From assembly GCF_007004725.1 (NCBI RefSeq), contig NZ_ML660163.1:124001-188000 (forward strand): 64,000 nt of DNA, given 5' to 3'. Shown here piece by piece: positions 44,680 to 64,000 of the stretch. The position numbers were made by a program, and so were the translations under genes. The stretch is from Aliikangiella coralliicola (GTDB lineage: Bacteria; Pseudomonadota; Gammaproteobacteria; Enterobacterales; Kangiellaceae). Within the stretch, counting starts at the first letter, position 1. Each line of letters opens with the position of its first letter. The notes beneath the pieces are model-generated. The model was not told where the DNA came from. It ran no database searches and saw only the letters and a program-made list of their open reading frames with translations.

Positions 44680-44688
44680 TTCGCTGAC

Positions 44689-46830
44689 CTACTCGCAGGA
44701 AGTGATACCATCGCTTGGTAACTCACCATAAAAAGTCGGCCCGACTTGATAAGGAAATACTGGTGTTAGTGTTCCATTCACATCTTCCACAGTAATATGA
44801 TAATGATAGCCAAGATTATCGTGTTCATGTCCATTATGCTGGTCCAGATACTCATTACCTTGTGCAGTTAAGCTGGCATCATAATAATAATCTTCAAAAT
44901 AAACGCCTTCACCTGCATCAATAGGATTTCTTGAAATAGATTCCAACTCTTCGCTCGTAGTCGGACCGGCAGTTACGTTAACCGTCCCTTTTGACAAGTC
45001 GTATTGATCAACCAACTGACAAGTACGTTCACCGGCAACCCCACAACCACTGGCTGAATTCGGATCATCATAGTCACGTTCAACCCAAGCGGTCTTAGCT
45101 AAAACACCTTGCATTTGATAAGGTCCATGAATTGGATAACCATCTGCTGCAAAACCATAAATAGGTGAGTGATTAGAGCCATCATCTCCCATTAAATCTT
45201 GCAAGCAACTGGAAAAAGTGTGGTGATGATATTCGCCTTGAACCTCGGCATGGCCTGAACAAATATCCACATCATAAACTTCAAATTTCGGCGCAAGATT
45301 ATTCCAAACACCTTCGTCGTTGTAGCTCATGGCATCGCCCCAGTTAAAAACCGAAGTTCCGTTAAGCATGACACCCACAGTACCTAAACCAACCTGGCAG
45401 GTTTGTGTCGCCGGTTTTGGTGACGATGGAATTTTATTATCTTTATTTTTGAGAACTGGACATTCGGGGCCAGGAGGCCAATAGCCCAAATCACAGGTGC
45501 GGTCGGAGTCGTAATTAATGTCCTGACCAAATTCAATCACATCGCCAACTTGTGCAGTCGTTCTTTGCGTAGGCGACTTAAAATCTCGATTTACATTGGG
45601 TCGACTATCTAATTTGTCGATCATATCCTGAGTTATGGTCACGGTATAGTTCGGAATACCAGTCGCGGTGAATGAAGTAAATTCTTCATTATTTTGTCTG
45701 GTCGCCAAAACCGATTGAACATTAACTAACACGCCTTCGCCATTTTCTTCAATATGGTTAGAACGGGTTGAGGTATTGATTTGCCAATTAGCAACATTAA
45801 TAATGACACTATCAGAACTAGAATTTTCAGTACCATCATTGACAACCAGAGAAACGACATAGCTCCCTTCTGCATCGGGAACCAAAACTGGGATTGCAGA
45901 ATCAGGATTAATCAGAGAAACATTACTATCAACCGGCTTTTCATCTAAAGTCCAACTATAACTCAAAGTATCACCATCAGCATCACTGCTGTCATTACCA
46001 TCAAGTGATAAGTCGTTACCAATGAAGGTCAGTTTATCATCACCTGCGCGAGCAACAGGCGGCGTGTTTTGCTGTGACGAACTAGCAGCGATGATCACCG
46101 TATCTGGCGAACTATCTTGAGTACCATCGTTAACGACTAATTGCAACACATAATCACCAACTTCATCAGCAGTAAACGTTGGAGACTCTAAGCTCGCATC
46201 ACTTAAAGAGGCATTACTGTTAGGCGGCACACTGTTAAAGCTCCAAGCATAAGTTAAATTATCACCATCTGCATCGGAACTTCCAGAGCCATCCAGGCTA
46301 ACTAAATCTCCTATGACAACGGTTTGATCACTACCTGCATTTGCAACTGGTGCATTATTACCTGTGGCATCCACAAAGATAGAAACAGTGTCTGGCGTGC
46401 TGTTGCCAGTTCCATCGTTCACGACCAACTGGATAACATAAGTTCCAACAACATCAGGTGTAAAAGTTGCCGAAACATTGGTATCGTTACTGAGCGTTGC
46501 ACTGCTGTTGTTAGGAGCGCTATTGATTGACCACTGATAAGTTAAAGCGTCACCATCTTGATCAGAGCTTCCACTGCCGTCTAATGTAACCACAGCGCCC
46601 AAATTTATGTTTTGATCCGCACCAGCATTTGCCACCGGTAATGTATTTGCAGAACCGCCGCCATTATCAGATCCGCCGTCAGAGTCATCGGCAGAACCAC
46701 CTCCACCGCCTCCACAGGCAGACATAACAAATATCAGAGAGAAAACTAACGCGATACCAGGTACTGAAAATAGATTTACCTGGCGAGTAGTTTGCTTACC
46801 TGATCTTACTTTACAACTAGACAACATCAT
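44689..46830 (-). CDS. YHYH-domain lipoprotein with three PKD-like Ig repeats
   Basis: About 713 residues. The frame is open to 46887, but AAGGAG just before the paired ATGs at 46830 and 46827 fixes the start there. A lipoprotein signal with lipobox MSAC is followed by a Gly/Ser/Asp linker. Three PKD/REJ-like repeats come next (VANAGADQNI...LDGSGSSDQDGDALTYQWS, about 70-350). The C-terminal YHYH domain (about 440-710) has the naming motif GYHYHITVE and other His/Cys clusters (EYHHHTFSSCLQDLMG, GPECP). The YHYH family is of unknown function, and its histidines suggest metal binding. It is the first gene of a tight pair with the Met/His-rich protein, which supports a metal-related job at the outer membrane. 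Confidence 0.88.
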   Translation of the reverse strand: MMLSSCKVRSGKQTTRQVNLFSVPGIALVFSLIFVMSACGGGGGGSADDSDGGSDNGGGSANTLPVANAGADQNINLGAVVTLDGSGSSDQDGDALTYQWSINSAPNNSSATLSNDTNVSATFTPDVVGTYVIQLVVNDGTGNSTPDTVSIFVDATGNNAPVANAGSDQTVVIGDLVSLDGSGSSDADGDNLTYAWSFNSVPPNSNASLSDASLESPTFTADEVGDYVLQLVVNDGTQDSSPDTVIIAASSSQQNTPPVARAGDDKLTFIGNDLSLDGNDSSDADGDTLSYSWTLDEKPVDSNVSLINPDSAIPVLVPDAEGSYVVSLVVNDGTENSSSDSVIINVANWQINTSTRSNHIEENGEGVLVNVQSVLATRQNNEEFTSFTATGIPNYTVTITQDMIDKLDSRPNVNRDFKSPTQRTTAQVGDVIEFGQDINYDSDRTCDLGYWPPGPECPVLKNKDNKIPSSPKPATQTCQVGLGTVGVMLNGTSVFNWGDAMSYNDEGVWNNLAPKFEVYDVDICSGHAEVQGEYHHHTFSSCLQDLMGDDGSNHSPIYGFAADGYPIHGPYQMQGVLAKTAWVERDYDDPNSASGCGVAGERTCQLVDQYDLSKGTVNVTAGPTTSEELESISRNPIDAGEGVYFEDYYYDASLTAQGNEYLDQHNGHEHDNLGYHYHITVEDVNGTLTPVFPYQVGPTFYGELPSDGITSCE

Positions 46831-46922
46831 TTTTCTCCTTCTAAAGGTCGCAGGATTAATTTCATAGAGCACTATCCCGAAATACACTGATACAAAATTT
46901 CAGTGCATCATTATTATTAATA

Positions 46923-47350: not shown

Positions 47351-50300
47351 TCAAAATTCTGTTTTTTTACTAGTGCTAGTAACTTTTCGCATAACAAACT
47401 TTTGCATAGCGAGCTTCCTAGCCCCAACCAAAATTAATAACACAAATAGAATTTGATACATTGCACCACCACCGGAAGATGCTGTCTGTTCCTCTTCATC
47501 TTCTGCTGAGACATCATTGTCGGTGATAGTTATCGTAGCGCTATTTTCGCCTGTGATAATGGTGTTAGTGGGATTAGTTAATGCGATCTCAAAAGACTCA
47601 TTGGTTTCATCCTGAGTGTCATCAACAATACCAATCGTTATCGTTTGGCTTGTCTCTCCATCGGCGAAAAACAAAGTCCCGTTAGTTGCGTTAAAGTCTT
47701 CACCATTAATAGCGGTACCATTAGTAAATTCATAGTCAAGGCTAATGTCACCAAAACTACCATTGGCTCTTAAAACGGTTATGGTCAATTCACTAAACGA
47801 CTCACTAATGCTAAATGAGCTTCCGCTGAATTGAATATCACCACTTGCTGGGACCGGATCATTTTCAGCAATAGTAATAGTGGTTTGTTCGATACTGCCT
47901 AAACTCGCATCACCATTTAAGTGAGTTAATCGCAATGTTAAATTTTCTTCGCCTTCATACTCACTATCATCAAGAATTAAAATTGTGAACGATAGACTGG
48001 TTTCACCATCAACAAAGGTCAGTTGTTCATCACTCAATCGATAATCTAAAAGATTAGTAGCGCTACCACCCTCGACACTAATACCAATACTTGCATCACC
48101 AAAGCTTCCATTAGAGCGAACTACCGTGACCGTTAAACTGCCATCACCTTCATCAACTGAATAAGTCGCGCCACTAAATTGAATCACGCCTGCTGGTGGA
48201 ACGGCATCATCTTCTAAAATGGTGACTGTTGAGTTGTTCGGATTATTAATTGAGGTACCAACTACATTCGTCAGCTCTAGATTAAAACTCTCATCACCTT
48301 CATAGGTTGAATCATCAATTAAGTTAACAGAGACTGTTTTAGCAATTTCACCATCAGCAAAAGTTAAAGTTTGATTGATACTTTGATAATCATCACCTGC
48401 AGTAGCTGAGTCATTCTGCGAAACAATATCAACACTAATTGTTCCAAAGTCTCCGCCAGTTCTGATAACAGATATATCGAATGAACTATCATTTTCATTT
48501 ACTTGATAACTGTCATTTTCAATGGATAACACACCCGCAGGTGGCACAGGTTCATCATCTAATATGGTTACGGTTGCAGTCGAAGTACCTAAGGTAGCAC
48601 CACCAGTCACATTTGATAGAACTACGCTAAATGACTCGTCGGATTCATAGACATTGTCATTTACTAAACTAATGGTGATAACTTTTTCAATTTCCCCATC
48701 AGCAAAAGTCAGTGTCTGACTTGAAGCCACATAATCGTTAGTGGCCGTCGCACTATCATCTTGAGTCACTAAAGAAACGGAAACTTCACCATAACTTCCC
48801 CCATCACGCACAACCTTAAGAGAAATATCACCATCATTTTCATTCACTTGATCAGCAGCAAACTCAAAACCGATTTCACCAGCTGGTGGAACCGGGTCGT
48901 CTTCTTGAATAGTAATCGTTGTGGTTGCTACTGAACCGAGTGAAGAATCACCAATACTTTGCAAATTGTTTAAAGTGACGGTAAAAGATTCATCGCCTTC
49001 ATAAGTCGAATCATCAACAACGTTAACAGTAATGGTTTGTTCCGTTTCACCATCAACAAAAGTCAGAGTATCAGCCACAAAGATATAATCATTGGTCGCC
49101 GTCGCTGAGCTATCTGGATCACTACCATCTTGCATGGTGTAATCAACGGTGAGTTCTTCATAATCACCATTAGTTCGAGTGACTTTTACATCAACACTGA
49201 AACCATTTTCCGCAACCACATAATCGGTGAATTCAAAATTTAGATCACCTGAGTAGGGATAAGGTGTGCTATCACTGTTATCACCAATACCATCGCCATC
49301 GGAATCTTGCCACTCAGAATCATCTAACGGAAAGGCATCGTCGTCATCTAAAACTCCGTCATTATCATCATCGGTATCTGCATTGTTACCAATACCATCT
49401 CCATCGGTATCTATTGTTTCAGAATCATCATTTGGAAAGTCATCGTCATCATCGTTAACGCCGTCATTATCATCATCTAGGTCACTGTTATCTTCAATTC
49501 CATCGATATCATTATCACGATAAGCTAGATTATTAAGAATAAGCGCCGGGTATTGATCGCTAGTGCCAAAATCCCAAAGGGTAGTAGACCAGTTTGAATA
49601 AACTAAAGCGGAACAAGTTGCATCACCTGCAGAAGTTGGGCATTGTAATTCGCTAGTGGTAAATCCGGTGCCACTATCGTTGAAGGTTGATAATTGCCCT
49701 GTTGACTCGGTATCCCAGTAGGCTTCAATCGTGGTAAAGGTTCCGGAGCCTCCTCCTATTAAACCACCTATATTCACATCGGCGACTTCTCCGGTATCGG
49801 TTACGCTACCGTAGGCAAGCACCGATTCTAGGGTCATATCTGAATAAGCAACCCCAATAATCCCTCCAACAATGTCTTTCCCATGAACTTTAGCAGCAGA
49901 ATAGCTATTGCGAATTTCAAAGACGTTAGGGGCTGAGGCATAACCCAAACCAAATAATCCACCGACATTTTCTAAACCGGAAACAGACCCCATGACAAAA
50001 CTGTTTTCGATAATATTATCGATACTACCGGTACCATTAGATTGCCCTGCTAATCCACCGACATAATTGCCGGTTCCAGTAATTTCAGCAATCACATAAC
50101 TGTCAGAAATTTGTAAGCTCTTGGAAAAACCAACGAATCCACCAACTATTTGAGATCCGTCCACAGTCCCGGAAAAACTAGAATTTTTAATAGTAGAATC
50201 CGCATCAATGCTTCCAAAATATCCCCCCACCAAACTGCCGGGAGAAAACACTGAAACATTCACAACACAATTAGAAACTGTCACGCCTCTAGCATAACCA

Positions 50301-53300
50301 CCTATACCACCAGCAACATGAACCGTCGATATGACTTCGCCGGAGAAATAGCAGTTAGTCAAAGTAAAATTGTCGTTATATGCTTGTCCAAATAACAAGC
50401 CGATATTAGAAACACCTTGGACCCTAGTATGCTCTCCTTCTATCGAAATATTTCGAAACTCGGCACCATCTATAACCTTAAATAACCCTATCAATCCACT
50501 AGAACTTTCAATGACCAAGTTGAGGATTTTAAATCCATTGCCTTCAAAAATTGCAGTAAAGGGATTATTAAAATCTCCGATAGGTTGCCATCCATCTGCA
50601 ATACTGGTTGATTCCCAATAATCGTCATTGGCATCAACAACACCATCGCCATTGGTATCAAAATCTAAATCGGTGGTTAATTCAAAACCGTTACAACCGG
50701 AGCTTAAACAACCTGCGCTAGAACCATAAAGTCCAGTTCCATCCAAATGATTATTAATTTCTTTCAGATCATCAAGACTGTCGATTTCGATCAGACCATC
50801 ATTATCTAAATCAACATCACTGTTATCACCGACGCCATCAGCATCACCGTCAGCTGACTCTGAAGCATCTTCTGGAAAAGCATCGTCGCCGTCTAAAACG
50901 CCGTCATTATCATCATCCGTATCGGCATTGTTACCGATTCCATCACCATCAGTATCGACTGTTTCTGTTGGATCATTTGGAAAAGCATCTTCACTATCCC
51001 ATACGCCGTCATCATCGCTATCACGATAGACAAAACCGTTAATTGTTAAGACGGGGTATTGAACGTCTGTACCAAAATCCCAATTACTGGAAGACCAGTT
51101 TGAATAAACTGGAGTTAAACAGGTTACATCACCTGGAGAAGTTGGGCACTGCAGTTCGCTAGTGGTTAGCCCTGTGCCGTTATTGCCAGAAGTAGAAGTT
51201 TGCCCGGTTGTATCAACATCCCAATAGGCTTCAATTGCAGTAACACTAAAGCCGTCTCCTACTAAACCACCTATTTCTGGGTTGGCTTTCACGCCGTTAT
51301 CAGTCACGCTGCCAAATGCAAGGACTGACTCTAGAGTAACATCCAAAGACGCAAGTCCTATTATCCCTCCTATAAGGTCACTGCCATCAACACTTGCTGC
51401 TGAATAACTATTGCGGATGTCAAAGGATTGACTGGAACTACCGAAGCCAACAAAGCCACCGATAAACTCGGAGCCTGAAACCGATCCCATTACAAAACTA
51501 TTTTCGATTATTGTTGAGTTTGCGGCAAATAGTTGCCCAACTAGTCCGCCAACAAAATCACTGGATCCCTCAATTTTTGCAATAACATAACTATCTCTAA
51601 TTTCTATATCATTAGATTCCCCTGTCAATCCACCAACACGTCTTTGACCATTCACTGTTCCATTAAAAAATGAATCTGAAATTGTCGAGTAGCTGATAAG
51701 TTGAGAGAAAAATCCGCCGGCATAACTTCCTGTTGTAGAAACAGATACATTCACTTTGCAATTAGTAACATCAGCACTTGCAGTGTAACCTCCAATGCCG
51801 CCAACATTACTTATAGTCGAAACGACTTTACCTGAGAAATAACAAGTGTAGAGAGATGGGCCAGCATTATCCGCTTGTCCAAATAATAAACCAGTATTCG
51901 CTCCTCCCTGGACACTGGTAAGTTCGCCGTCAATTGAAAAGTTACGAAAAACCGCACCATCAACTGTTCGGAATAAACCGATACTTGATGTTGCGTTACT
52001 ACTCTCAATAACTAAATTTAGGATTTTAAAATCATTACCTTCAAAGATTGCGGTAAAAGGATTGCCTTCTCCTCCGATAGGTTGCCAACCATCGGCAATA
52101 CTGGTTGATTCCCAATGATCATCATTGGCATCAACAACGCCATCACCATTGGTATCAAAATCTAAATCGGTGGTTAATTCAAAACCGTTACATCCAGAAT
52201 TTGGACAACCCGCACTAGAACGGTAAAGTCCAGTTCCATCTAGGTTGTTTTCAATTTCTCTCAGGTCATCAAGGCTGTCTATTTCGATAAGACCATCATC
52301 GTCCAGGTCAACGTCGATAACATCCGGAATACCGTCGTTATCATTATCAGTGTCATGATAAACAATATTGTTAATAATCAGGCCCGGATATTGACTGGTT
52401 CCTCCAAAATCCCAGTCGTCTGTTGACCAAGTTGTATAGAGCGCGACAGAGCATCCATCATCACCCGGTTTTTGTGGGCATTGTAATTCGCTAGTAGTGA
52501 GTCCGGTTCCGTAATTGCCGTAGGTTGTAGTTTGTCCGGACGTATCTGTATCCCAGTAAGTTTCGGTAGCTGTGATTACCGAGTCACTATAGCCAACTAA
52601 TCCACCCACCTCTGCATTGCCGAATACCTGACCATAGGCTAATACACGATTTAAAGTGACGCTAAGGTCATTGTAACCAATAAGCCCGCCAACCCAATCC
52701 GTACCAATCACCGAACTGCCGACATTCACATCTCTAATCTCTAGTGCTTGATTAGTAGATTGCAAACCGATAAGCCCACCGATCAGTAAGGTGCCTTTCA
52801 CCTCGCCTAATACAAAACTATTATTGATCAACGAGTCCGGAGTATTAGCACTAGAACGAGTAGTTATATCACCGACTAATCCACCAGCTGAATCGGTGGT
52901 TGCAGTCACATCTGCGATAACATAACTGTTGCTAATCGAGATGCTATCGCTAGAACCAATCAACCCACCAATAGTATGAAGCCCGGATACATTACCAATA
53001 AACTGGCTAAATTCGATATTTAAATCAGCAACTGACGTTGCGACTAATCCCCCCACTCGAGATCCAGTTCCAGTAATTGTCGCTTCTACTCGGCAATTCT
53101 CAATACTACCGCCCTCTGTATAAGCAATTAGACCACCAAGCGTTGAAACTCCCGATATAACACCATTAAATGAGCAATTTTGAAATTTACTTCCGACAGT
53201 ACTACTTTCTCCAGCAAAGCCAGCAGTGAAGGAATCGCCAGCAATACTTGTTAACTCACCGCCAATATGAATATTCTGGAATGTCGCATTATCCACATAA

Positions 53301-53755
53301 GCAAATAAAGCAACATTACTATTAGAGGTCCTATTGATGTAAAGATTTAAGATTGAATAGTCATTGCCTTCCAAAGTTGCAGAGAATGGTTCAACCTGAC
53401 TCCCCATCGGTTCCCAACCTGCCCCACTATTCCAGTAGGTATCGTTGGCATCCATCACACCATCACCGTCAGTATCAAAATCCAAATTTGTGGTTAACTC
53501 AAAACCAGTACAACCAGCAATGGGACAGCCAGCACTACTACCATAAAGCGCGGTACCATCAAGATGATTGCGAATTTCATTGAGGTCTTCCAGATCATTA
53601 ATTTCAATTAAGCCATCGTCATCTAAATCATAATCAGAACGACCACTTTCAGCTGAAAGCATTGGGCTAATTAAAAGGCTGACCAATGCCAGATTAAGCA
53701 ATACAACAAATTGGCTTAACTGACGGACTTTAAGAATAAAGAGTTTTAACTGCAT
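47351..53755 (-). CDS. Giant GLUG / Calx-beta protein with GlyGly-CTERM-like tail (paralogue 1)
   Basis: A 2134-residue exported protein. The start at 53755 is chosen (not the open frame to 53800) because its paralogue begins at the same point and AAGGA precedes both. The signal peptide ends near LSAESGR. Three large modules (about 35-470, 480-970, 980-1410) each open with DLDDDGLIEI..LDDL and GCxGFELTTDLDFDT, then carry GLUG repeats (IGGLIG, AGGLVG) of a beta-helix type. Thrombospondin-type-3 calcium loops ([19 protein letters not shown]) separate modules 2 and 3 and follow module 3. Five Calx-beta domains (about 1500-2080) end in VDDxxxEGDESF motifs. The tail is SSGGGAMYQ, a hydrophobic helix and a long basic end, a looser GlyGly-CTERM than in its paralogues. 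Likely a calcium-stiffened surface adhesin or matrix protein. Confidence 0.88.
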   Translation of the reverse strand: MQLKLFILKVRQLSQFVVLLNLALVSLLISPMLSAESGRSDYDLDDDGLIEINDLEDLNEIRNHLDGTALYGSSAGCPIAGCTGFELTTNLDFDTDGDGVMDANDTYWNSGAGWEPMGSQVEPFSATLEGNDYSILNLYINRTSNSNVALFAYVDNATFQNIHIGGELTSIAGDSFTAGFAGESSTVGSKFQNCSFNGVISGVSTLGGLIAYTEGGSIENCRVEATITGTGSRVGGLVATSVADLNIEFSQFIGNVSGLHTIGGLIGSSDSISISNSYVIADVTATTDSAGGLVGDITTRSSANTPDSLINNSFVLGEVKGTLLIGGLIGLQSTNQALEIRDVNVGSSVIGTDWVGGLIGYNDLSVTLNRVLAYGQVFGNAEVGGLVGYSDSVITATETYWDTDTSGQTTTYGNYGTGLTTSELQCPQKPGDDGCSVALYTTWSTDDWDFGGTSQYPGLIINNIVYHDTDNDNDGIPDVIDVDLDDDGLIEIDSLDDLREIENNLDGTGLYRSSAGCPNSGCNGFELTTDLDFDTNGDGVVDANDDHWESTSIADGWQPIGGEGNPFTAIFEGNDFKILNLVIESSNATSSIGLFRTVDGAVFRNFSIDGELTSVQGGANTGLLFGQADNAGPSLYTCYFSGKVVSTISNVGGIGGYTASADVTNCKVNVSVSTTGSYAGGFFSQLISYSTISDSFFNGTVNGQRRVGGLTGESNDIEIRDSYVIAKIEGSSDFVGGLVGQLFAANSTIIENSFVMGSVSGSEFIGGFVGFGSSSQSFDIRNSYSAASVDGSDLIGGIIGLASLDVTLESVLAFGSVTDNGVKANPEIGGLVGDGFSVTAIEAYWDVDTTGQTSTSGNNGTGLTTSELQCPTSPGDVTCLTPVYSNWSSSNWDFGTDVQYPVLTINGFVYRDSDDDGVWDSEDAFPNDPTETVDTDGDGIGNNADTDDDNDGVLDGDDAFPEDASESADGDADGVGDNSDVDLDNDGLIEIDSLDDLKEINNHLDGTGLYGSSAGCLSSGCNGFELTTDLDFDTNGDGVVDANDDYWESTSIADGWQPIGDFNNPFTAIFEGNGFKILNLVIESSSGLIGLFKVIDGAEFRNISIEGEHTRVQGVSNIGLLFGQAYNDNFTLTNCYFSGEVISTVHVAGGIGGYARGVTVSNCVVNVSVFSPGSLVGGYFGSIDADSTIKNSSFSGTVDGSQIVGGFVGFSKSLQISDSYVIAEITGTGNYVGGLAGQSNGTGSIDNIIENSFVMGSVSGLENVGGLFGLGYASAPNVFEIRNSYSAAKVHGKDIVGGIIGVAYSDMTLESVLAYGSVTDTGEVADVNIGGLIGGGSGTFTTIEAYWDTESTGQLSTFNDSGTGFTTSELQCPTSAGDATCSALVYSNWSTTLWDFGTSDQYPALILNNLAYRDNDIDGIEDNSDLDDDNDGVNDDDDDFPNDDSETIDTDGDGIGNNADTDDDNDGVLDDDDAFPLDDSEWQDSDGDGIGDNSDSTPYPYSGDLNFEFTDYVVAENGFSVDVKVTRTNGDYEELTVDYTMQDGSDPDSSATATNDYIFVADTLTFVDGETEQTITVNVVDDSTYEGDESFTVTLNNLQSIGDSSLGSVATTTITIQEDDPVPPAGEIGFEFAADQVNENDGDISLKVVRDGGSYGEVSVSLVTQDDSATATNDYVASSQTLTFADGEIEKVITISLVNDNVYESDESFSVVLSNVTGGATLGTSTATVTILDDEPVPPAGVLSIENDSYQVNENDSSFDISVIRTGGDFGTISVDIVSQNDSATAGDDYQSINQTLTFADGEIAKTVSVNLIDDSTYEGDESFNLELTNVVGTSINNPNNSTVTILEDDAVPPAGVIQFSGATYSVDEGDGSLTVTVVRSNGSFGDASIGISVEGGSATNLLDYRLSDEQLTFVDGETSLSFTILILDDSEYEGEENLTLRLTHLNGDASLGSIEQTTITIAENDPVPASGDIQFSGSSFSISESFSELTITVLRANGSFGDISLDYEFTNGTAINGEDFNATNGTLFFADGETSQTITIGIVDDTQDETNESFEIALTNPTNTIITGENSATITITDNDVSAEDEEEQTASSGGGAMYQILFVLLILVGARKLAMQKFVMRKVTSTSKKTEF

Positions 53756-53878
53756 GATTTCGCTTATCCTTTTCCACCTATCGGCGATGGGTAATAGCAT
53801 TTATATTCAACAATGACACCTACACAGCTAGAACCATGCCAAAATAAAAAGCTATTAATTTTCAATAAGTTAAGAAAT

Positions 53879-53955
53879 CTATAAGCAATAGATTTATCGG
53901 TAATTGCTTATAAAATTCTATAAGCAATAATTTGAGGATGTTTTTTTCTTATAAG
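53879..53955 (-). promoter_or_regulatory. GCTTATAG motif cluster upstream of paralogue 1
   Basis: On the minus strand there are CTTATAAG (53948-53955), ATTGCTTATA (53919-53928) facing its exact reverse complement (53903-53912) across a 6-base gap, and ATTGCTTATAG (53879-53889). The last copy lies 124 bp before the ATG. The same core stands before paralogue 2, the M60 gene and the CSLREA gene. Confidence 0.6.
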
Positions 53956-53981
53956 GGAATTTAGGGGGAATTGTTATTATG

Positions 53982-54137
53982 GTCATCTCGACCAACGTGG
54001 AGAGATCTCCCGCCGACATTTACTAGCTCAATCTCTCGTCAATAATTGAAATAAGAAAGACTATCTGAATTAAAAACTGCGATCGGGTTGAGACTGTCAA
54101 TACCTTTAGGAGATCTCTCCATTCCAGTCGAGATGAC
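53982..54137. repeat. Palindromic interspersed repeat, copy 1 (MITE-like)
   Basis: The ends GTCATCTCGACC and the matching TCGAGATGAC are inverted, as are the inner GGAGAGATCTCC and GGAGATCTCTCC. Total length is about 156 bp with no coding capacity. A second, longer copy is at 59695. Confidence 0.7.
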
Positions 54138-54189
54138 AGAACAATTCGGGAAGATGGAGCTTTTTTATTCATTCAAAAATGCGAGCTAA

Positions 54190-54233
54190 ACCCTCCGTAA
54201 AAAATGAAATCAAATTCACTGAATACGGAGGAT
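54190..54233 (-). terminator. 3' hairpin of paralogue 2
   Basis: CCTCCGTA and TACGGAGG pair across 24 bases, about 20 bp after the stop. The matching structure follows the third paralogue (59948). There is no strong T-run, but the conserved position after both genes supports a role in ending or protecting the transcript. Confidence 0.5.
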
Positions 54234-54251
54234 TGTTTTTACGCTAACTAG

Positions 54252-57200
54252 TTAAACTTCTCGTCTGTTAAGATTGAACCGTTTACGCGCAAAAAATATT
54301 AATCCTAACAACAACCATGAAATGGAACCACCACCAGATGATGATTCAGTCTCAACCTCCGGCTCTACTTCAGTCTCATCATTATCACTAATGTTAATAG
54401 TTGCTGTTGCTTCACCTGCGATGATTGTGTTGACTGGATTAACCAATGCAATCTCAAAAGATTCATCACTTTCATCCTGACTGTCATCAACAATACCAAT
54501 CGTTATCGTTTGACTTGTCTCTCCATCAGCAAAAAATAAAGTGCCGTTAGTTGCGTTAAAGTCTTCACCATTAATGGCAGTACCATCAGAGTATTCATAG
54601 TCAACGCTAATGTCACCAAAACTACCATTGGCTCTTAGAACTGTTATAGTCAATTCACTGAATGACTCACTAATGTTAAATGAGCTTCCGCTTAGTTGAA
54701 TATCACCACTTGCTGGAACCGGATCATTTTCAACAATGATGATAGTGGTTTGTTCGATACTTCCTAAACTTGCATCACCGTTTAAGTGAGTTAATCGCAG
54801 CGTTAAATTTTCTTCACCTTCATACTCACTATCATCAAGAATTAAAATTGAGAACGATTGACTGGTTTCACCATCAACAAAGGTCAGTTGTTCATCACTC
54901 AATCGATAATCTAGAAGATTAGTTGCGCTACCACCATCGACACTAATGCCAATACTCGCGTCACCAAAACTTCCATTAGAGCGAACTACCGTGACAGTTA
55001 AACTACCATCACCTTCATCAACTGAATAAGTCGCGCCACTAAATTGAATGACACCTGCTGGTGGAACGGCATCATTTTCTAAAATGGTGACTGTTGAAGT
55101 GATTGGATTATTAATCGAGGTACCAACTACATTGGTCAGCTCTAGATTAAAAGTTTCATCGCCTTCATAAGTTGAATCATCAATTAAGTTAACAGTGACC
55201 GTCTTAGCAATTTCACCATCAGCAAAGTTTAAAGTTTGATTGATACTTTGATAATCATCGCCTGAAGTAGCTGAATCATTTTGTGAAACAATATCGACAC
55301 TGACTGCACCAAAGTCTCCGCCAGTTCTAATCACAGTGATATCCAATGAAGTATCATTTTCATTGATTTGATAGCTATCATTTTCAATGGATAACACGCC
55401 AGCCGGTGGCACAGGTTCATTATCTAGAATGGTTACCGTCGTAATTGAAGTTCCTAAAGTCGCACTACCAGTGACATTCGAAAGTAAGAGGCTGAATGAT
55501 TCATCAGACTCATACGCATCATCATCAACTAAACTAATGGTGATAACTTTTTCAATTTCTCCATCAGCAAAAGTTAGCGTCTGACTTGAAGCGACATAAT
55601 CATTCGTTGCCGTTGCGCTATCATCCTGAGTAACTAATGAAACTGAAACCTCACCAAAGCTACCACCATCACGAACAACCTTAAGAGAAGTATCACCATC
55701 ATTTTCATTCACTTGATCAGTAGCAAACTCAAAACCGATTTCACCAGCCGGTGGAACCGGGTCGTCTTCTTGAATAGTAATTGTAGTGGTGGCTACTGAA
55801 CCAAGAGAAGAATCACCAGTACTTTGCAAATTGTTTAAAGTGACAGTAAAAGATTCATCGCCTTCATAAGTTAAATCATCAACAATACTAACCGTAATAG
55901 TTTGTTCCGTTTCACCATCAGCAAAAGTTAAAGTATCAGCCACAAACACATAATCATTGGTAGCCGTCGCAGAGCTATCCGGATCAGCACCATCTTGCAT
56001 TGTGTAATCAACGGTGAGTTCTTCATAGTCACCGTTAGTTCGAGTGACTTTTACATCAACACTGAAACCATTTTCCGCAACCACATAATCGGTGAATTCA
56101 AAATTTAGATCACCTGAGTAGGGATAAGGTGTGGTATCGCTGTTATCACCAATACCATCACCATCGGAATCTTGCCATTCAGAATCATCTAACGGAAAGG
56201 CATCGTCGTCATCTAAAACACCATCATTATCATCATCGGTGTCAGCATTATTACCGACACCATCTCCATCGGTATCTGTTGTTTCAGAATCATCTAAAGG
56301 AAATGCATCATCGTCGTCACTTACACCGTCATTATCATCATCGGTATCAGCATTATTACCAATCCCATCGCCATCTGTGTCTTGCCATTCTGTATTGTCA
56401 AACGGGAAAGCATCCTGGTCGTCAGTTACGCCATCGTTATCATCGTCGGTATCAGCGTTGTTGCCAATTCCGTCACCGTCAGAATCTAAAGTTTCATCCG
56501 CGTCGTTAGGAAATGCATCCTCTTCATCAATCACACCATCGCCATCATTATCATTAGTATTGGCAAACACTAGAAAATAGTTGAATGAATAGTCATCAGC
56601 AGAACCGGCCATCACAATATTATGATCATCGGTTAAGGCGACCGATTCAGGACTGTTGAAATCATCTAAACTGTATGTAGCAAGCCCATTGATACCAAAA
56701 TCGCTTACCAGCTCACCTGTCTCTGTCAGCTTAGCCAACACTGCAATAAAGCTACCAGTAGCATCGTTATGGTAATAGTAGGTCGCCAATAGATGACCAT
56801 CTTCCTGTTGAAATATGCCTGTCAAAAACACAAAAGTATTATCGGTAGGGTTCAGCAGTGCGGCGTACCCATCAGCACCAAAGTTTGTATCTATTGTCCC
56901 GTCGGAATTTAAACGATAGAGATAAACACCTTTATCATCATCTGACCAATCACTAGTGAGAACAATAAAACCACCAGCCTGATCTGAAATGATAAAATCA
57001 GGCGTACGATCGTTTCCTAAAACATCATTGATAATACCACTGCTTCCAAACGAATCTATCAGTAACCCCTGACTATCAATTTTGGCAAAATTGAGAGTTC
57101 TACTCTGTCGAGAAGCAAGCAAAAACTCATCGTCTGCCGTTTCAATCACTGCAACAGTACTTTCCGGGCCGCTTCCGGAGTAAAAATCAAAGTTTCTGTA

Positions 57201-59468
57201 AGTGTTATCTTCATAAAAGGTGGTGTCTAACTCATCGTTTTCATCGAGTCGAAATACTCGAGTTGCGCCATCGCTTCCTCTAACACTGCTGTACACCAAC
57301 ATCCCACCATTACTACTAGAAGCAGCTAGCACCTCATCGTCTGAGGAGTTTGCAAGTTTATACTGACCAGGTGTGGGCTGGGTTGTGAAACGTTGCGAAG
57401 ATAAATTGCCAGCGTCATCTAGTGCTAATAGACAAGTTGCTTTATCGCATTCAGGTAGCACGAGTATTCGACTCCCATCGGCTTCAAAGCCTATGTCTCT
57501 TGGCTGGTAAGTTTCAACTCCCAGATCATAGCCATAAACAAATCCATCGCTTGCGTAATTTGTATCTATCGTCATATCAGCATTAAAACGAGAAAGATAG
57601 AAGGAGATTTCATCACCTCTTAATGTCCCAACTACATAGAGATGTCCATCATCACCATTTTTCAACAATGGAGAATTATTTTCGAAATAGTCAGCAGAAG
57701 GAAATACCGACAGTTCAAAGTAGCCGCCACCATTTACACTTTCATCAAGCGGCGTCAGGAAATCATTGGCATCATTTAGGTCTGTGCCCTGCAAAACTTC
57801 ATATCCATCGAGGATATGGTCCCCATCGGAATCTTGATAAAAATCGTCCGCGTCATTTGGATCCATTCCTTGTGCTATTTCAGTGTTATCACCTAAACCA
57901 TCGCCGTCACTATCGGTTGTTTCAGAAGCATCATTAGGAAAGGCATCCGCATTATCACCCACGCCGTCACCATCGCTATCAGTTGTTTCAGAAGCATCAT
58001 TGGGAAAATCATCATCGTCATCAGAAACACCATCAGCATCATTATCACGATAAATCACACCGTCGATGATTAGTCCTGGATACTGATTAGTATCACCAAA
58101 ATCCCAATCATCGGTTGACCAGGAGCCATATGGCGTAACGAGACATCCATTATCGCCTGGATTTTGTGGGCACTGTAATTCGCTAGTGGTCAATCCTGTG
58201 CTATTACCATCTGCGCTAGATGATTGCCCAGTTGACTCAATATCCCAGTAGGTTTCATTCGTAGTAATGGTTGCCAAACTTGCCCCAACTAAACCACCGA
58301 TTTCAACATCGGCAACTTCTCCGGTATCAGTAACACTACCATAAGCTAATACTGATTCTAGAGTCAGGTCAGCAAGTACAAGTCCTACAATGCCTCCGAT
58401 TGTATCTTCACCATGGACACTTGCCGCGGAAAAACTATTGCGGATTTCAAATGAACCGTTGGGAGTGGCCTGTCCAATAAATCCACCAACACTTAGAAGC
58501 CCAGAAACCGATCCCATCACAAAACTATTTTCAATAATCGTGTCTTTGGTCTGGAAACCAAATAATCTACCGACAAACCCACCGGTATAAATGCTGGTTC
58601 CTGTTATATCAGCGTTTACATAGCTTTGGTATATTTCAATATCCCTGGAAGAACCAATGAATCCCCCCACATCTTCTTGACCACTCACAGATCCAGTAAA
58701 AACAGAATTCGAAATTGTAGACTTGCCGCTAAGTTGAGCTAAAAATCCACCTGCAAAATCCCCAGTTGTTGAAACAGAAACATTAACTTCGCAATTGGAA
58801 ATGTCTGCTTCACTAGCATAACCCCCAATCCCACCGACACTTGCAAGTGTTGCAACAACTTCACCAGAGAAATCACAATTGGAAAGAGTTACACCAGCAT
58901 TATCGCCTTGTCCAAATAACAAACCGATATGCCCTCTCCCCTGAACCCTTGTATGCTCACCTTCAATTGAAAAGTTTTGAAATACTGCGCCATCAACCGC
59001 TCGGAATAAGCCGATAGTTGTTGTAGAACCAACACCTTCAATCACTAGATTGAGAATCTTAAAGTCATTACCTTCAAAGATTGCTGTAAAAGGCGCGTTG
59101 GTGTCTCCGATGGGTTGCCAACCCTCTGCAATACTCGTTGATTCCCAATAGTCATCATTGGTATCAACAACGCCATCACCATTAGTATCAAAATCTAAGT
59201 CAGTGGTTAATTCAAAACCGATACAACCCGTGTTAGGGCAACCAGTGCTCGAACCATAAAGCGCTGTACCATCAAGATGATTGCGGATTTCATTTAAATC
59301 ATCCAAATCATTAATTTCGATCAGACCATCGTCGTCCAGGTCATAATCAGAACGGCCACTTTCGGCCGATAGCGTTGGGCTAATTAAAAGACTGACCAAA
59401 GCCAGGTTAAGCAATACAACCAATTGACTTAACTGACGGACTTTAAGAATAAAGAGATTGAACTGCAT
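54252..59468 (-). CDS. Giant GLUG / delta-60 propeller / Calx-beta protein with GlyGly-CTERM (paralogue 2)
   Basis: A 1738-residue exported protein. The signal peptide is nearly identical to paralogue 1 (LVVLLNLALVSLLISP). One GLUG module (about 34-480) with the same DLDDDGLIEI opening is followed by type-3 calcium loops (480-580). A delta-60-type propeller (about 590-970) follows, with the recurring pattern LNSDGTIDTNFGADGY and variants, absent from paralogue 1. More calcium loops (970-1113) lead into five Calx-beta domains (1115-1690) that match paralogue 1 almost word for word. The end is a clear GlyGly-CTERM tail: SSSGGGSISW, hydrophobic helix, ARKRFNLNRREV. AAGGA precedes the ATG. Domain content suggests a surface-exposed, calcium-dependent adhesive or matrix protein; no enzyme site is visible. 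Confidence 0.88.
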   Translation of the reverse strand: MQFNLFILKVRQLSQLVVLLNLALVSLLISPTLSAESGRSDYDLDDDGLIEINDLDDLNEIRNHLDGTALYGSSTGCPNTGCIGFELTTDLDFDTNGDGVVDTNDDYWESTSIAEGWQPIGDTNAPFTAIFEGNDFKILNLVIEGVGSTTTIGLFRAVDGAVFQNFSIEGEHTRVQGRGHIGLLFGQGDNAGVTLSNCDFSGEVVATLASVGGIGGYASEADISNCEVNVSVSTTGDFAGGFLAQLSGKSTISNSVFTGSVSGQEDVGGFIGSSRDIEIYQSYVNADITGTSIYTGGFVGRLFGFQTKDTIIENSFVMGSVSGLLSVGGFIGQATPNGSFEIRNSFSAASVHGEDTIGGIVGLVLADLTLESVLAYGSVTDTGEVADVEIGGLVGASLATITTNETYWDIESTGQSSSADGNSTGLTTSELQCPQNPGDNGCLVTPYGSWSTDDWDFGDTNQYPGLIIDGVIYRDNDADGVSDDDDDFPNDASETTDSDGDGVGDNADAFPNDASETTDSDGDGLGDNTEIAQGMDPNDADDFYQDSDGDHILDGYEVLQGTDLNDANDFLTPLDESVNGGGYFELSVFPSADYFENNSPLLKNGDDGHLYVVGTLRGDEISFYLSRFNADMTIDTNYASDGFVYGYDLGVETYQPRDIGFEADGSRILVLPECDKATCLLALDDAGNLSSQRFTTQPTPGQYKLANSSDDEVLAASSSNGGMLVYSSVRGSDGATRVFRLDENDELDTTFYEDNTYRNFDFYSGSGPESTVAVIETADDEFLLASRQSRTLNFAKIDSQGLLIDSFGSSGIINDVLGNDRTPDFIISDQAGGFIVLTSDWSDDDKGVYLYRLNSDGTIDTNFGADGYAALLNPTDNTFVFLTGIFQQEDGHLLATYYYHNDATGSFIAVLAKLTETGELVSDFGINGLATYSLDDFNSPESVALTDDHNIVMAGSADDYSFNYFLVFANTNDNDGDGVIDEEDAFPNDADETLDSDGDGIGNNADTDDDNDGVTDDQDAFPFDNTEWQDTDGDGIGNNADTDDDNDGVSDDDDAFPLDDSETTDTDGDGVGNNADTDDDNDGVLDDDDAFPLDDSEWQDSDGDGIGDNSDTTPYPYSGDLNFEFTDYVVAENGFSVDVKVTRTNGDYEELTVDYTMQDGADPDSSATATNDYVFVADTLTFADGETEQTITVSIVDDLTYEGDESFTVTLNNLQSTGDSSLGSVATTTITIQEDDPVPPAGEIGFEFATDQVNENDGDTSLKVVRDGGSFGEVSVSLVTQDDSATATNDYVASSQTLTFADGEIEKVITISLVDDDAYESDESFSLLLSNVTGSATLGTSITTVTILDNEPVPPAGVLSIENDSYQINENDTSLDITVIRTGGDFGAVSVDIVSQNDSATSGDDYQSINQTLNFADGEIAKTVTVNLIDDSTYEGDETFNLELTNVVGTSINNPITSTVTILENDAVPPAGVIQFSGATYSVDEGDGSLTVTVVRSNGSFGDASIGISVDGGSATNLLDYRLSDEQLTFVDGETSQSFSILILDDSEYEGEENLTLRLTHLNGDASLGSIEQTTIIIVENDPVPASGDIQLSGSSFNISESFSELTITVLRANGSFGDISVDYEYSDGTAINGEDFNATNGTLFFADGETSQTITIGIVDDSQDESDESFEIALVNPVNTIIAGEATATINISDNDETEVEPEVETESSSGGGSISWLLLGLIFFARKRFNLNRREV

Positions 59469-59590
59469 ATTTTTGCTTATCCTTTTTCACCTATCTACTG
59501 CGGGTGATAGCAATTTCATTTAACAATGAGGTTCGCAAAGCTAAATTTATGCCAACAATTAAAACATTTATATTTCAATAGGTTAGCAAT

Positions 59591-59668
59591 CTATAAGCAA
59601 TATTTTTACGGTAATTGCTTATAAGAAAGCTTTATAAGCAATAAGTTGAAATTGAGAATTCTTATAAG
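59591..59668 (-). promoter_or_regulatory. GCTTATAG motif cluster upstream of paralogue 2
   Basis: CTTATAAG (59661-59668), then ATTGCTTATA (59633-59642) facing TATAAGCAAT (59614-59623 on this strand) across 9 bases, then ATTGCTTATAG (59591-59601), 123 bp before the ATG. Order and distance match the cluster at 53879; only the spacer inside the inverted pair differs (9 versus 6 bases). Confidence 0.6.
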
Positions 59669-59694
59669 GGGTTTGAAAGGGGAGTTGTTTCTCT

Positions 59695-59913
59695 CGTCAT
59701 CTCGACCGTAGTGGACGACTGCATGGATGCAGGAGGTAGAGTAATTCAGTGGTCCGGCACACCGGAGCAATTACCGAGAGATCTCCCACAGACATGTTCC
59801 AGCTTAACCTCTCATCAAAATTTGAAATAAGAAAGGCTCACTGCTTTGAAAACTACAATGGGGTGAGCTTGTCGATACCTTTAGGAGATCTCTCCACGTT
59901 GGTCGAGATGACG
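59695..59913. repeat. Palindromic interspersed repeat, copy 2 (MITE-like)
   Basis: Same outer ends (CGTCATCTCGACC and GGTCGAGATGACG) and inner GAGAGATCTCC / GGAGATCTCTCC as the copy at 53982. It is about 60 bp longer because of a segment around 59711-59775, which itself contains the small dyad TGCATGGATGCA. No coding capacity. Confidence 0.7.
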
Positions 59914-59947
59914 GTGCTTTCTAATTGATTCAAAAATGCGAGTAAAT

Positions 59948-60010: not shown

Positions 60011-63000
60011 TTAAACTTTGCTCTGTAAAACTTTTGTCCGTTTACGTGCAAGAAACATCAACGCTAACCACAACCAAGAAAGTGAACCACCACCAGAAGA
60101 AGTACTCTGCTCTTCCTCATCTTCGACTTTAACGTCATTGTCAGTAATAGTTACCGTGGCATTGCTTTCATCCAAAATGGTGGTGTTAACAGGATTGTGT
60201 AATACGACATTAAAAGTTTCATCGCTTTCATCCTGTGTATCATCGGTAATATTAATCTGAATTTGTTTTTGAACTTCACCATCGGCAAAGTACAAACTTC
60301 CTTCTGCAACATTAAAGTCTTCACCATTAACCGCGCTACCGTTATTAATTTGATAATCAACACTAATATCGCCATAACTGCCATCGACTCTCACCACAGT
60401 AATAGTTAATTGATCGAATGATTCATTGATAGTGTACTGAGTTCCACTAAACCGAACATTACCGCCTTCTGGAACTAATTCGTTTTCTCGAATGGTGACA
60501 ACTGACTCACTTACTGATCCGATGCTGGCGTCACCATCTAAGTTAGCTAAACCCAAGGTAAAATATTCATCGCCTTCATAGTCCCTGTCATCAAAGATAA
60601 CAATGGATACCGATTGACTCACTTCGCCATCCGGGAATGTCAAACTGGAATTCGCAATACGGTAATCAATACCATGAGTGGCATCACCGGATATCACCGA
60701 TAAATCAGCACTGACTTCCCCGACACTGCCAAGTGTTCGAGTGACAGTGACAATTAAGTCAGTCGCATCTTCATCCGCTTGATAAGCAACGCCACTAAAT
60801 TGAATAATGCCGGCCGAAGGTATTGGTTCGTCTTCATTGATAATCACCTTGGCCACTATTTGATTAGCCAGCTCAGTTCCCGCAACATTGGTCAATTGCA
60901 AATCGAAACTTTCGTTGCCTTCATATTCAGAGTCGTCAATTAAACTCACACTGATAGTTTGACTGATTTCACCGTCTGCAAAGCTCACTGTTTGATTAAC
61001 AATTTGATAATCTTCTGCGGCGGTGGCCGAATCATTTTGCGAAACGACATCCACACTCACCTCACCTAAGCTACCACCTTCTCGAATAACAGTTACCAGC
61101 AACGAGTGATCATTTTCATTGACCTGGTAACTATCAAACTCAAAGGATAAAACACCGGCTGCCGGTACAGGGTCATTGTCTAAAATGGTCACCTTGATTA
61201 CTGAAGTGCCCAAGGTGGCACCACCAGTAATATTGGATAATGCTAATTCAAAAACTTCATCTGATTCATAAAGCTCATCGTCAACCAAATCAATCGTGAT
61301 ATCTTTTTCCAGTTCTCCATCAGCAAAGATTAAAGTCTGACTAGTTGCTAAATAGTCACTCACCGAATGTGCACTAGAATCTCGCGTGGCATAGGCAACA
61401 GAAACTTCACCACTGCTACCGCCTTCACGAAGAATTTTGATGGTTACCGTACCATCATTTTCATCAACAATCGCACTATCAAATTCAAATCCAATTTCAC
61501 CAGCAGCTGGCACTGGGTCGTCTTCTTGAATGGTAACTATCGCGATCGAGTCCAAGCCGATCGAAGACTCGCCCACACTTTGTAAATTACTTAGATTAAG
61601 CGTAAATGATTCATCACCTTCGTAAGTTGAGTCATCAACAATGTTAACCCAAATAGATTGTTCGGTTTCACCGTTTGCAAATGCTAAGGTAGCTGCCGCA
61701 AATTCATAATCATTAGTTGCGGTCGCAGAGCTATCTGGATTACTCCCGTCTTGCATTGCATAGTCAATGGTCAACTCTCCATAATCGCCATTGCTACGGA
61801 TTACTTTTACTTCAACAGATAAACCATTCTCAGCAACAACATAATCAGTCAGTTCAAAATTAACATCACCGGAATAAGGATAAGGGGTGTCATCACTGTT
61901 ATCGCCGATACCATCTCCATCAGAATCCTGCCATTCGGTTCCATCTAATGGGAATTCATCTTCGTCATCTGCAACACCATCATTATCGTCATCAGTGTCT
62001 TGATTATTACCTATGCCGTCACCGTCAGTATCAAGCCATTCATTTTCATCAAATGGGAACGCATCTTCGTCATCTGAAACACCATCATTATCGTCATCAG
62101 TATCTGCATTATTACCGATACCATCACCGTCAGAATCTTCCCATTCATTTTCATCATAAGGGAATGCGTCTTCTCTATCGTCGATACCATCATTGTCGTC
62201 GTCCGGATCAACAGAATCTCCGATGCCGTCACCGTCCCAATCAGTATCCTGAATCTCAATTTCTCGGATGACAGTCGTTGCTGAATTTCCTGCAGCATCG
62301 CTAACGTCATAACTTAAGATATAGGTCCCAATGGTATTAGTATCTATCGCACCGCTGATCACAATATCAGCAGAGATATCGCCATCGTTGTTATCGGTCG
62401 CAATAGCTCCCTGCTCTACGTAACTATTGCCAACGGTCAGCAACATCGTAGCGTCACCATTGAGGGTAATTTCCGGCGCGGTTTGATCGGTTACATTGAT
62501 AATCCTAGTGACTGATGTGGCCGCATTATTCGCAGCGTCTACAACGTCATAAGTTAAGGTATAACTGCCGACAATATGGGTATCCACGCTACCACTCACA
62601 GTGATTACACTGCTTAAATCACCGTCAACATTATCGCTGGCGTTGGCCCCATCATCGATGTAGCTGGAACCTTGCGCAATCGTGATTTCTGCATCGCCAA
62701 TTAAAGTAATCACCGGTGCAGTTTGGTCAGTTACAGTGACAATTCGTTCAACTTCCACTGCACCATTATTCGCAGCATCGCTCACATTAAATGCTAATCG
62801 ATAGCTACCTAATTGACTGGTATCAACTGTACCAGTCATCACAATTTGTGCCGTTAAATCGCCGTCGACATTATCATTGGCACTAGCTCCTGCATCGACA
62901 TAATTGTCGCCTTGGGCGATAATCAAGGCGGCATCACCAGACAAGGTAATAACAGGCGCAGTTTGGTCAGTGACCGTCACCGTCGCCTGGGCGACTCCCG

Positions 63001-64000
63001 TGTTGCCGGATAAGTCAGTTGCACTAAATGTGACAGTGGTAATCCCCAATGGAAACACAGTAGGGGCATCATGAGTTACCGCCAAATCACCGTCAACTAG
63101 ATCGTTAGCTGTGGCGCCCGAGAGGAAATTCGCGATTGTAGTTTCAGAATCTGGAGTGCCGTTAGCATCAACCGCAGCCACAGTAATATTCGCAGGAACG
63201 GTGACCACCGGCGCGTCATTGTCTTGCACGGTTACTTGACGAGTTAACGCAGTCGCGGCATTACCGGAGGCGTCACTAATTCGATAAGTCAGAATGTAAA
63301 TTCCCAGGCTACTTGTATCAACACTGCCATTAATATTCACTTGGTGACTAATATCACCGTCCACATTATCGTTAGCAGTTACGCCTTGTTCTGTATAAGT
63401 ATCCCCGACAGATAATGTAATCGCACTGTCACCATTTAAGGTCATCACTGGAGCCGTTTGATCAGCAATAGTCACTGTCGCTTGTGACTGTCCGGTATTG
63501 CCTGAACTATCAGTTGCACTAAAAGTCACCGTGGTGACGCCTAATGGAAAAATGCTGGGCGCATCATGGGTCGGCGTTAAGGCGCCATCCACATCATCGT
63601 TAGCGGAGGCTGCGGCTAAGAAAGTTTGGATGTCTGTGTCTGTTGCCGGTGTTCCGTTAGCATCGACTGCCGCAACAGTAATACTGGTTGGTGCAGAAAC
63701 AACTGGTGCAAACGCATCTTGTACACTCACCGAACGAGTCACTTCCACAGCATTATTGCCGGCGGCATCGGCGACATTGTAGCGTAAGGTATAAACGCCT
63801 AGATTAGTCGTATCAACGCTACCACTTTCCACAATATTAACCGTGATATCACCATCCACATTATCGCTCGCAGTAGCACCGGCATCAGTATAGGTATCAC
63901 CAATATTGACGGTAACAGAAGCATCGCCGGTTAAACTAATTACTGGTGCAGTTTGATCAGTCACGGTGATAGTTGATTGCGCGCTACCAATATTTCCTGC
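60011..64000 (-). CDS. Giant Ig-like / Calx-beta protein with GlyGly-CTERM (paralogue 3, 5' end missing)
   Basis: The frame is open to the window edge (first visible codons read [13 protein letters not shown]), so the true start lies outside; about 1329 residues are visible. Upstream part (64000 to about 62260): alternating bacterial Ig-like DUF5011-type repeats ([32 protein letters not shown]) and HYR-type repeats (DANGTP...[20 protein letters not shown]). Next come type-3 calcium loops ([19 protein letters not shown], to about 61890), then five Calx-beta domains (61880-60120) homologous to those of paralogues 1 and 2 but more diverged. The end is a GlyGly-CTERM tail: [13 protein letters not shown], hydrophobic helix, [13 protein letters not shown] likely exported, calcium-binding surface protein. 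Confidence 0.87.

Follow-up and report, generated by a model that had tools for sequence, protein, structure and literature searches.

Predicted sigma-54 control of giant surface-protein genes by a neighbouring enhancer-binding protein in Aliikangiella coralliicola

Introduction

The PrsK/PrsR regulon is among the described systems closest to the one analysed here. In the available parts of the papers on that regulon (PMC1569441, Haft et al. 2006; PMC9850573), an activator site, sometimes repeated, is followed after a spacer of 32-92 nt by a GG/GC sigma-54 motif, and the PEP-CTERM operator is given as a 17-nt motif ending in TTTACA (PMC1569441). In this work we analysed a stretch of 64,000 nucleotides from Aliikangiella coralliicola (assembly GCF_007004725.1, contig NZ_ML660163.1, positions 124,001 to 188,000; "the window"), in which copies of GCTTATAG lie upstream of the genes of two giant paralogous proteins (giants A and B), an M60 peptidase and a CSLREA-domain protein. 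We consider it highly probable, judging from sequence, that these copies are half-sites of one neighbouring bacterial enhancer-binding protein (bEBP), which would activate the local giant surface-protein genes via sigma-54 promoters. The bEBP has orthologues in two genomes of other genera, one of the same family (G039) and one of another family (G200); the source genome is G000.

Compared to PrsK/PrsR, as far as the available text of the papers cited above goes, sorted surface proteins, long upstream regions, a site followed by a sigma-54 motif, and a receiver-AAA+ activator with a kinase are shared. The differences are that the cargo here consists of GlyGly-CTERM and other secreted proteins, that the operator is CGCTTATAG and not a 17-mer ending in TTTACA, and that the sites lie mainly in one island and also precede the activator's own gene. 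The spacers between half-site and -24/-12 elements measure approximately 36-96 nt, and seven of the eight are within the published PrsR range, with that of G039 (approximately 96 nt) outside it. The three bEBP orthologues scored 304, 305.9 and 293.4 bits against the PrsR model TIGR02915 and did not reach its cut-off (502.6 bits). Because family score, DNA-binding domain and operator all fail, the bEBP was not assigned to the PrsR/PEP-CTERM box regulon. The regulatory logic is known from PrsR/PEP-CTERM; what is new, as predicted from sequence, is a sigma-54 enhancer variant with a differing operator and a non-Fis bEBP.

The general architecture of bEBPs, with GAFTGA as the signature of their loop, is described in the available part of PMC7175178. 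The bEBP of this study shares the receiver, sigma-54 AAA+ and lid domains of NtrC/AtoC-type bEBPs, and its highest NCBIfam scores, none of which reached the cut-off, were against the AtoC and NtrC models. It differs from them by the lack of an HTH_8 match and by a loop that departs from the signature. According to the available text of PMC4641369, DVU0151 and its orthologues in Desulfovibrio are bEBPs without the Fis-type helix-turn-helix, some of which match a winged-helix model; the likeness to these proteins, the absence of a Fis-type domain, is one of description. As to YfiBNR-type periplasmic signalling (PMC4655355, available part), the similarity is a weakly matching DUF4154/YfiR-like protein next to a kinase in G000 and G200, while the difference is that the YfiR-like protein is here accompanied by a TonB-dependent receptor, a histidine kinase and a receiver or receiver-GGDEF protein.

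Results and Discussion

Half-sites and predicted sigma-54 promoters occupy the same upstream regions

The motif TTGCTTATAG, allowing up to one mismatch, was found 17 times in the window (vs. 5.06 ± 2.16 expected), a number reached in none of 100 shuffles. A previous sequence-only reading of the window had reported it before both giant genes, including inverted pairs, with its core repeated before the M60 and CSLREA genes and missing before the M12B (16182-19118) and S8 (20130-22310) protease genes. All of these observations were confirmed (Table 1). The inverted pairs before the giants are separated by 6-base and 9-base gaps, and a CTTATAAG palindrome near 53948 was found in addition to the half-sites of giant A. 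The motif is real, looks functional and is over-represented in the window, but its conserved unit is a half-site of approximately CGCTTATAG, not the 10-mer first described, and the number and orientation of the half-sites vary.

A -24/-12 promoter (TTGGC-N9-GC) likewise lies in each of the four upstream regions with the motif, on the correct strand and downstream of the motif copies; the earlier reading had missed it. Sixteen upstream regions of the window were examined; four harbour both motif and promoter, and the other 12 harbour neither GCTTATA nor a promoter scoring at least 8 of 12. On both strands of the window there are nine matches to TTGGC-N9-GC, and four of them are the promoters of giants A and B and of the M60 and CSLREA genes. 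TTGG-N10-GC was present upstream of the target genes in five of five promoters of the source genome (the fifth is described below), in one of G039 and in two of G200.

In these eight promoters the distance from half-site centre to GG is 42, 41, 76, 76, 66, 101, 76 and 76 bp, that is, 41-42 bp in the giants, 66 bp in the operon behind the fifth promoter (the S74 operon), 101 bp in G039 and exactly 76 bp in four promoters from two families (M60, CSLREA and both G200 targets). Further half-sites lie 67-69, 81-82 and 110-112 bp from GG in the giants, and a poorer CTTATA lies at 45 bp in the M60 promoter. A half-site is also present 40-54 bp downstream of GG in half of the promoters (M60, CSLREA, S74 operon and G039; 31990, 36060, L117:7836 and L122:5328, respectively), where it might act as a second, repressing site.

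A neighbouring enhancer-binding protein and a fifth promoter

The bEBP gene is located beyond the window (Table 1), and a fifth motif and promoter site starts approximately 120 bases past its 3' end. Downstream of this promoter there are three tightly packed genes, followed without a gap by a third giant. A Peptidase_S74 domain was detected in the two of these three genes that were scanned.

The S74 operon has features of its own. Three tandem repeat-rich proteins share it with a GlyGly-CTERM giant (L117:2443-7750, C4:190442-195749), and one of the two scanned has a weak YadA-head match. Peptidase_S74 (chaperone of endosialidase) is a tail-fibre-type domain, and an operon with a GlyGly-CTERM giant is an unusual setting for it.

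The three bEBP orthologues all contain a receiver, a sigma-54 AAA+ domain (PF00158, E = 6.3e-65, 2.4e-64 and 5e-63) and a lid, the L1 loop reads GAYTGA in each of them, and a RpoN gene is present in all three genomes. No match to HTH_8 (Fis-type) was obtained for any of the three. In the 20 other strong PF00158 bEBPs of the source genome, HTH_8 was passed by 17, scored below the gathering score in two and had no match in the RtcR-type one. The C-terminus matched HTH_27 in two orthologues (E = 0.0017 and 0.016), and DUF5817_CT (0.0022) and MarR_2 (0.096) in the third, all below the gathering score. PDB searches with the C-terminal domain gave nothing significant (profile search: best 0.15; SlyA/MarR chain 0.44). 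These matches, mostly to winged-helix models (HTH_27, MarR), hint, weakly, at a winged-helix-like C-terminus that is not recognisably Fis-type. Identity among the orthologues is 82-88% in the C-terminal recognition segment and 21-27% in the linker preceding it.

In the mechanism that we propose, the nearby histidine kinase probably phosphorylates the bEBP, the phosphorylated bEBP would bind the half-sites upstream of the -24/-12 promoters, and ATP hydrolysis by its AAA+ domain would open the sigma-54 RNA polymerase. The five predicted targets are giant A, giant B, the M60 gene, the CSLREA gene and the S74-type operon ending in the third giant. Half-sites also occupy the region that separates the bEBP gene from the divergent receiver, receptor and kinase genes, suggesting autoregulation of the bEBP or feedback on the sensor genes. 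In the source genome this region has no TTGG-N10-GC pointing towards the bEBP.

The half-sites might instead belong to another regulator, for instance a MarR-like repressor, with a different bEBP driving the sigma-54 promoters. The half-sites downstream of GG described above occupy a typical repressor position, and the 20 other strong PF00158 matches of the genome would supply candidates for the second role. In each of the three genomes, however, the bEBP gene has a site cluster on either side, and the sites and the DNA-binding segment of the bEBP are conserved together; we consider a separate regulator unlikely.

The module recurs in two other genera

The bEBP was found in two of 40 genomes of the family (the source genome and G039, 69% identity) and in none of the six other genomes of the genus. 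In a sample of 394 genomes of the order there were three, including the source genome; the third is G200 (68%). A sample of 369 genomes of the class yielded the source genome and one 45% match restricted to residues 8-424, a sample of 398 genomes of the phylum yielded the source genome only, and 152 genomes of the family of G200 yielded G200 itself only. The matches listed in a scan of named genomes included generic bEBPs with identities not above 42%, and plasmids gave no match at 1e-100.

Half-sites precede the bEBP gene in all three genomes (four in G000, four in G039 and three in G200). In the 13.7-kb contig of G039, all four GCTTATA copies are crowded into the 53 bp preceding the bEBP gene; what is unusual is this clustering and not the count of four (37 of 200 shuffles). 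G200 has three CTTATA half-sites upstream of its bEBP gene, two upstream of the next operon and others upstream of a lectin-like gene, a further predicted target; one GCTTATA is intragenic. The operon beside the bEBP has TTGG-N10-GC in both genomes. Its first gene encodes a YHYH protein (PF14240 in G039, judged by sequence in G200) and is followed by a small partner, and a YHYH pair of the window (44119-46887) is related to these targets.

Motif likeness could in principle be an unselected relic of duplicated promoters. The upstream regions of giants A and B resemble each other, and those of the M60 gene, the CSLREA gene and the S74 operon can be aligned over approximately 170 bp with a mean column identity of 74%. 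Against such a relic, the three bEBP upstream regions have the half-site in common but not the number or order of its copies, a pattern that points to selection more than to plain inheritance. Moreover, the sites of the window were predicted by a matrix from the other genera, and we regard a mere relic as quite improbable.

This matrix was trained on 14 half-sites from G039 and G200 only, all selected for CTTATA. With a cut-off of at least 13 bits, set after the scores had been seen, all 10 hits in the window fell within the four upstream regions (2469 of 64000 bases). After mononucleotide shuffling, the same regions gave a mean of 0.14 hits (maximum 1, 100 rounds), and the background was four hits in 279831 bases (71 loci of the source genome chosen without the motif, some of them overlapping).

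Genome-wide scans and the GlyGly-CTERM question

The plain 9-mer TTGCTTATA was not enriched in the genome (82 copies vs. 121 in the reversed control), and pairs not more than 100 bases apart occur only upstream of the two giants (6 of the 82 copies). CTTATA followed after 31-91 bases by YTGGCA-N8-GC had 11 matches in 7.04 Mb: seven in the four window promoters, one new match at C4:195868-195950 and three elsewhere. When GCTTATA was demanded before YTGGCA-N8-GC, six matches were obtained (reversed control 2), five of which are the island promoters within 42 kb. The same pattern had 8 matches in 12 other genomes (vs. 10 in the control). With the half-site in the opposite orientation, 11 matches were found in G200 (vs. 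3 in the control), four of them inside the module.

The sequence-only reading had described the four motif-bearing genes as GlyGly-CTERM genes and suggested a shared operator for large sorted surface proteins, which would make the motif a general operator of GlyGly-CTERM (rhombosortase-sorted) proteins. The M60 and CSLREA proteins pass TIGR03501 (16.9 and 21 bits; cut-off 15.5), and the C-terminal ends of giants A and B each consist of a Gly-rich stretch, a hydrophobic stretch and basic residues. Neither of these two giants is, however, among the 30 TIGR03501 matches of the genome (19 over cut-off; three of the 30 are the window genes M60, CSLREA and M12B), and giant A scored 69.1 bits against NF038115 (SVAGG GlyGly-CTERM), under the cut-off of 150. 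Enrichment of the motif upstream of GlyGly-CTERM genes had been set beforehand as the test of this idea. Twenty-one such genes outside the window were examined (16 over cut-off, including the third giant, and five below; the weaker L053 and L056-L060 were left out). GCTTATA was present within 700 bp upstream of the approximate start in none of the 21, and within 600 bp of the start in none of the 19 with a resolved start, two of which showed lone CTTATA or TATAAG 6-mers. L064 and L078 have no resolved start, and the scan was placed around approximate ones. One of the 21, the third giant, ends its operon, the promoter of which lies further upstream. The M12B gene of the window has no upstream motif either, and the sites of the other genera precede YHYH, lectin-like and bEBP genes. 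On the upstream scans of this genome a GlyGly-CTERM operator was rejected, and we regard it as extremely improbable. What stands is a shared regulatory site before a set of large surface proteins; what the motif-bearing genes have in common is a sigma-54 promoter and the bEBP in their neighbourhood, and not GlyGly-CTERM sorting. In the literature collection searched, no paper joined GlyGly-CTERM with RpoN or with sigma54.

Several observations weigh against control by the neighbouring bEBP. The winged-helix assignment depends on weak Pfam matches below the gathering score, and the variable orientation and spacing of the half-sites leave the dimer geometry unclear. Three of the 11 matches to the CTTATA and promoter pattern lie outside the island, and its reversed control gave six. 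The 12 other genomes scanned with GCTTATA include G039 and G200, whose module promoters were not caught, since the half-sites upstream of these promoters are in the reverse orientation; the opposite-orientation pattern, in turn, was not enriched in the source genome (7 vs. 21 in the control, two of the seven being real). The target promoter of G039 has a single TATAAG upstream (another is downstream) and no GCTTATA. The share of matrix hits inside the four upstream regions varies with the threshold (12 of 13 at 12.5 bits, 12 of 14 at 12, 12 of 18 at 11 and 13 of 22 at 10). Finally, neither GCTTATA nor a promoter of its own was found for the YHYH gene of the window. Since the YHYH pair lies after giant A without a site of its own, it may be transcribed jointly with giant A.

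Sensor genes and a possible mobile cassette

On the opposite strand beside the bEBP gene there are genes for a receiver protein (receiver-GGDEF in G039 and G200) and a TonB-dependent receptor (judged by likeness in G200). In G000 and G200 these are followed by the DUF4154/YfiR-like protein, a match below the gathering score, and a histidine kinase (L117:13211-14797 in G000); the two kinases are 64% identical. The contig of G039 ends after the TonB-dependent receptor. YfiN is the usual partner of YfiR. The gene neighbourhood suggests that the sensor-side proteins feed the bEBP.

Between the bEBP and receiver genes, reading towards the receiver, there is one TTGG per genome (TTGGCTTGATAATTGA in G000, TTGGCGTAAATATTGT in G039 and TTGGCGTTTTTCTTGC in G200), and a TTGGC-N7-TTG element faces the divergent receiver, receptor and kinase genes in all three (L117:9876, L122:3468 and L205:5156). 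TTGG-N10-GC towards the sensor genes was found in one of the three genomes (G200), overlapping the longest possible reading frame there. We treat a feedback promoter of the sensor genes as a lead, not a result.

A wider reading, to which we give somewhat less than an even chance, is that of a mobile control cassette. The TonB-dependent receptor, the YfiR-like periplasmic protein, the histidine kinase and the receiver or receiver-GGDEF protein would feed a winged-helix (non-Fis) bEBP. This protein would act through multi-copy CGCTTATAG enhancers, feeding back on the sensor genes and on its own gene, and would fire sigma-54 promoters in front of any surface or secreted cargo gathered around it, such as giant Calx-beta proteins, S74-type proteins, an M60 peptidase, YHYH proteins and lectin-like proteins. 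If true, such a cassette would turn outside contact directly into a new cell coat. The timing of very-large surface protein production in bacteria is poorly known, and this locus offers a concrete activator, operator and promoter set. It also suggests that other surface proteins acquired the sigma-54 logic of PEP-CTERM proteins, whether this arose for them or spread to them. The bEBP itself, with predicted sites in three genera, departs from the usual Fis-type DNA-binding domain.

Near the regulatory module there is an open reading frame (L117:15170-16900) which looks transposase-like. It would fit a mobile origin of the module.

Other features of the window

Table 1. Features of the giant-protein island. 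Positions without a prefix refer to the window; C4 is the contig, and L117, L122 and L205 (the latter two in the text only) are loci of G000, G039 and G200, respectively.
Feature	Position	Strand	Basis or remarks
bEBP gene, 539 residues	C4:196094-197713 = L117:8095-9714	minus on L117	approximately 8 kb past the window end
Fifth sigma-54 promoter	C4:195868-195883		heads the operon ending in the third giant
Predicted enhancer of giant A, three GCTTATA half-sites in -,+,- orientation	53879..53927	-	motif search; half-sites 53879-53888 (-), 53904-53913 (+), 53918-53927 (-); two-genome matrix 15.0, 14.5, 15.9 bits
Predicted sigma-54 promoter of giant A, TTGGCATGGTTCTAGC	53827..53842	-	pattern scan
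Giant A, Calx-beta/GLUG protein, Gly-rich C-terminal tail	47351..53755	-	start 53755 picked by likeness to giant B
Predicted enhancer of giant B, three GCTTATA half-sites	59591..59641	-	motif search; half-sites 59591-59600 (-), 59615-59624 (+), 59632-59641 (-)
Predicted sigma-54 promoter of giant B, TTGGCATAAATTTAGC	59540..59555	-	pattern scan
Giant B, 1738 aa	54252..59468	-	open reading frame
Predicted enhancer of M60 gene, two direct half-sites 19 bp apart	31851..31879	+	motif search; cores at 31851 and 31870
Predicted sigma-54 promoter of M60 gene, TTGGCACATAAATCGC	31950..31965	+	pattern scan
Half-site downstream of M60 promoter	31990..31999	+	motif search; core at 31990
M60 peptidase (enhancin-like) with PKD domain, GlyGly-CTERM	32118..35615	+	PF13402, TIGR03501
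Predicted enhancer of CSLREA gene, two direct half-sites 19 bp apart	35911..35941	+	motif search; core at 35911 and one from 35929
Predicted sigma-54 promoter of CSLREA gene, TTGGCACATAAATCGC	36010..36025	+	pattern scan
Half-site downstream of CSLREA promoter	36060..36069	+	motif search; core at 36060
CSLREA-domain, Calx-beta protein, GlyGly-CTERM	36108..42188	+	TIGR04214, TIGR03501
Small partner of YHYH gene, relative of the target operon's second gene (63% G039, 51% G200)	44119..44679	-	sequence comparison
YHYH/PKD protein, 69% orthologue of the predicted sigma-54 target beside the G039 bEBP	44689..46887	-	sequence comparison
Third giant, continues beyond the window end as far as C4:190442; final gene of the operon that the fifth promoter heads	60011..64000	-	open reading frame, TIGR03501

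Two further genes of the window were recorded. An RHS-repeat protein of 3161 residues (TIGR03696) is encoded at 602-10087, without the motif upstream, and a gene for a DUF4915 plus TPR protein (42344-43840) lies directly after the YHYH pair. Upstream of giants A and B, both intergenic regions hold stretches (53980-54140 and 59690-59915) with GAGAGATCTCC and GTCATCTCGAC words; these stretches resemble a dispersed repeat element.

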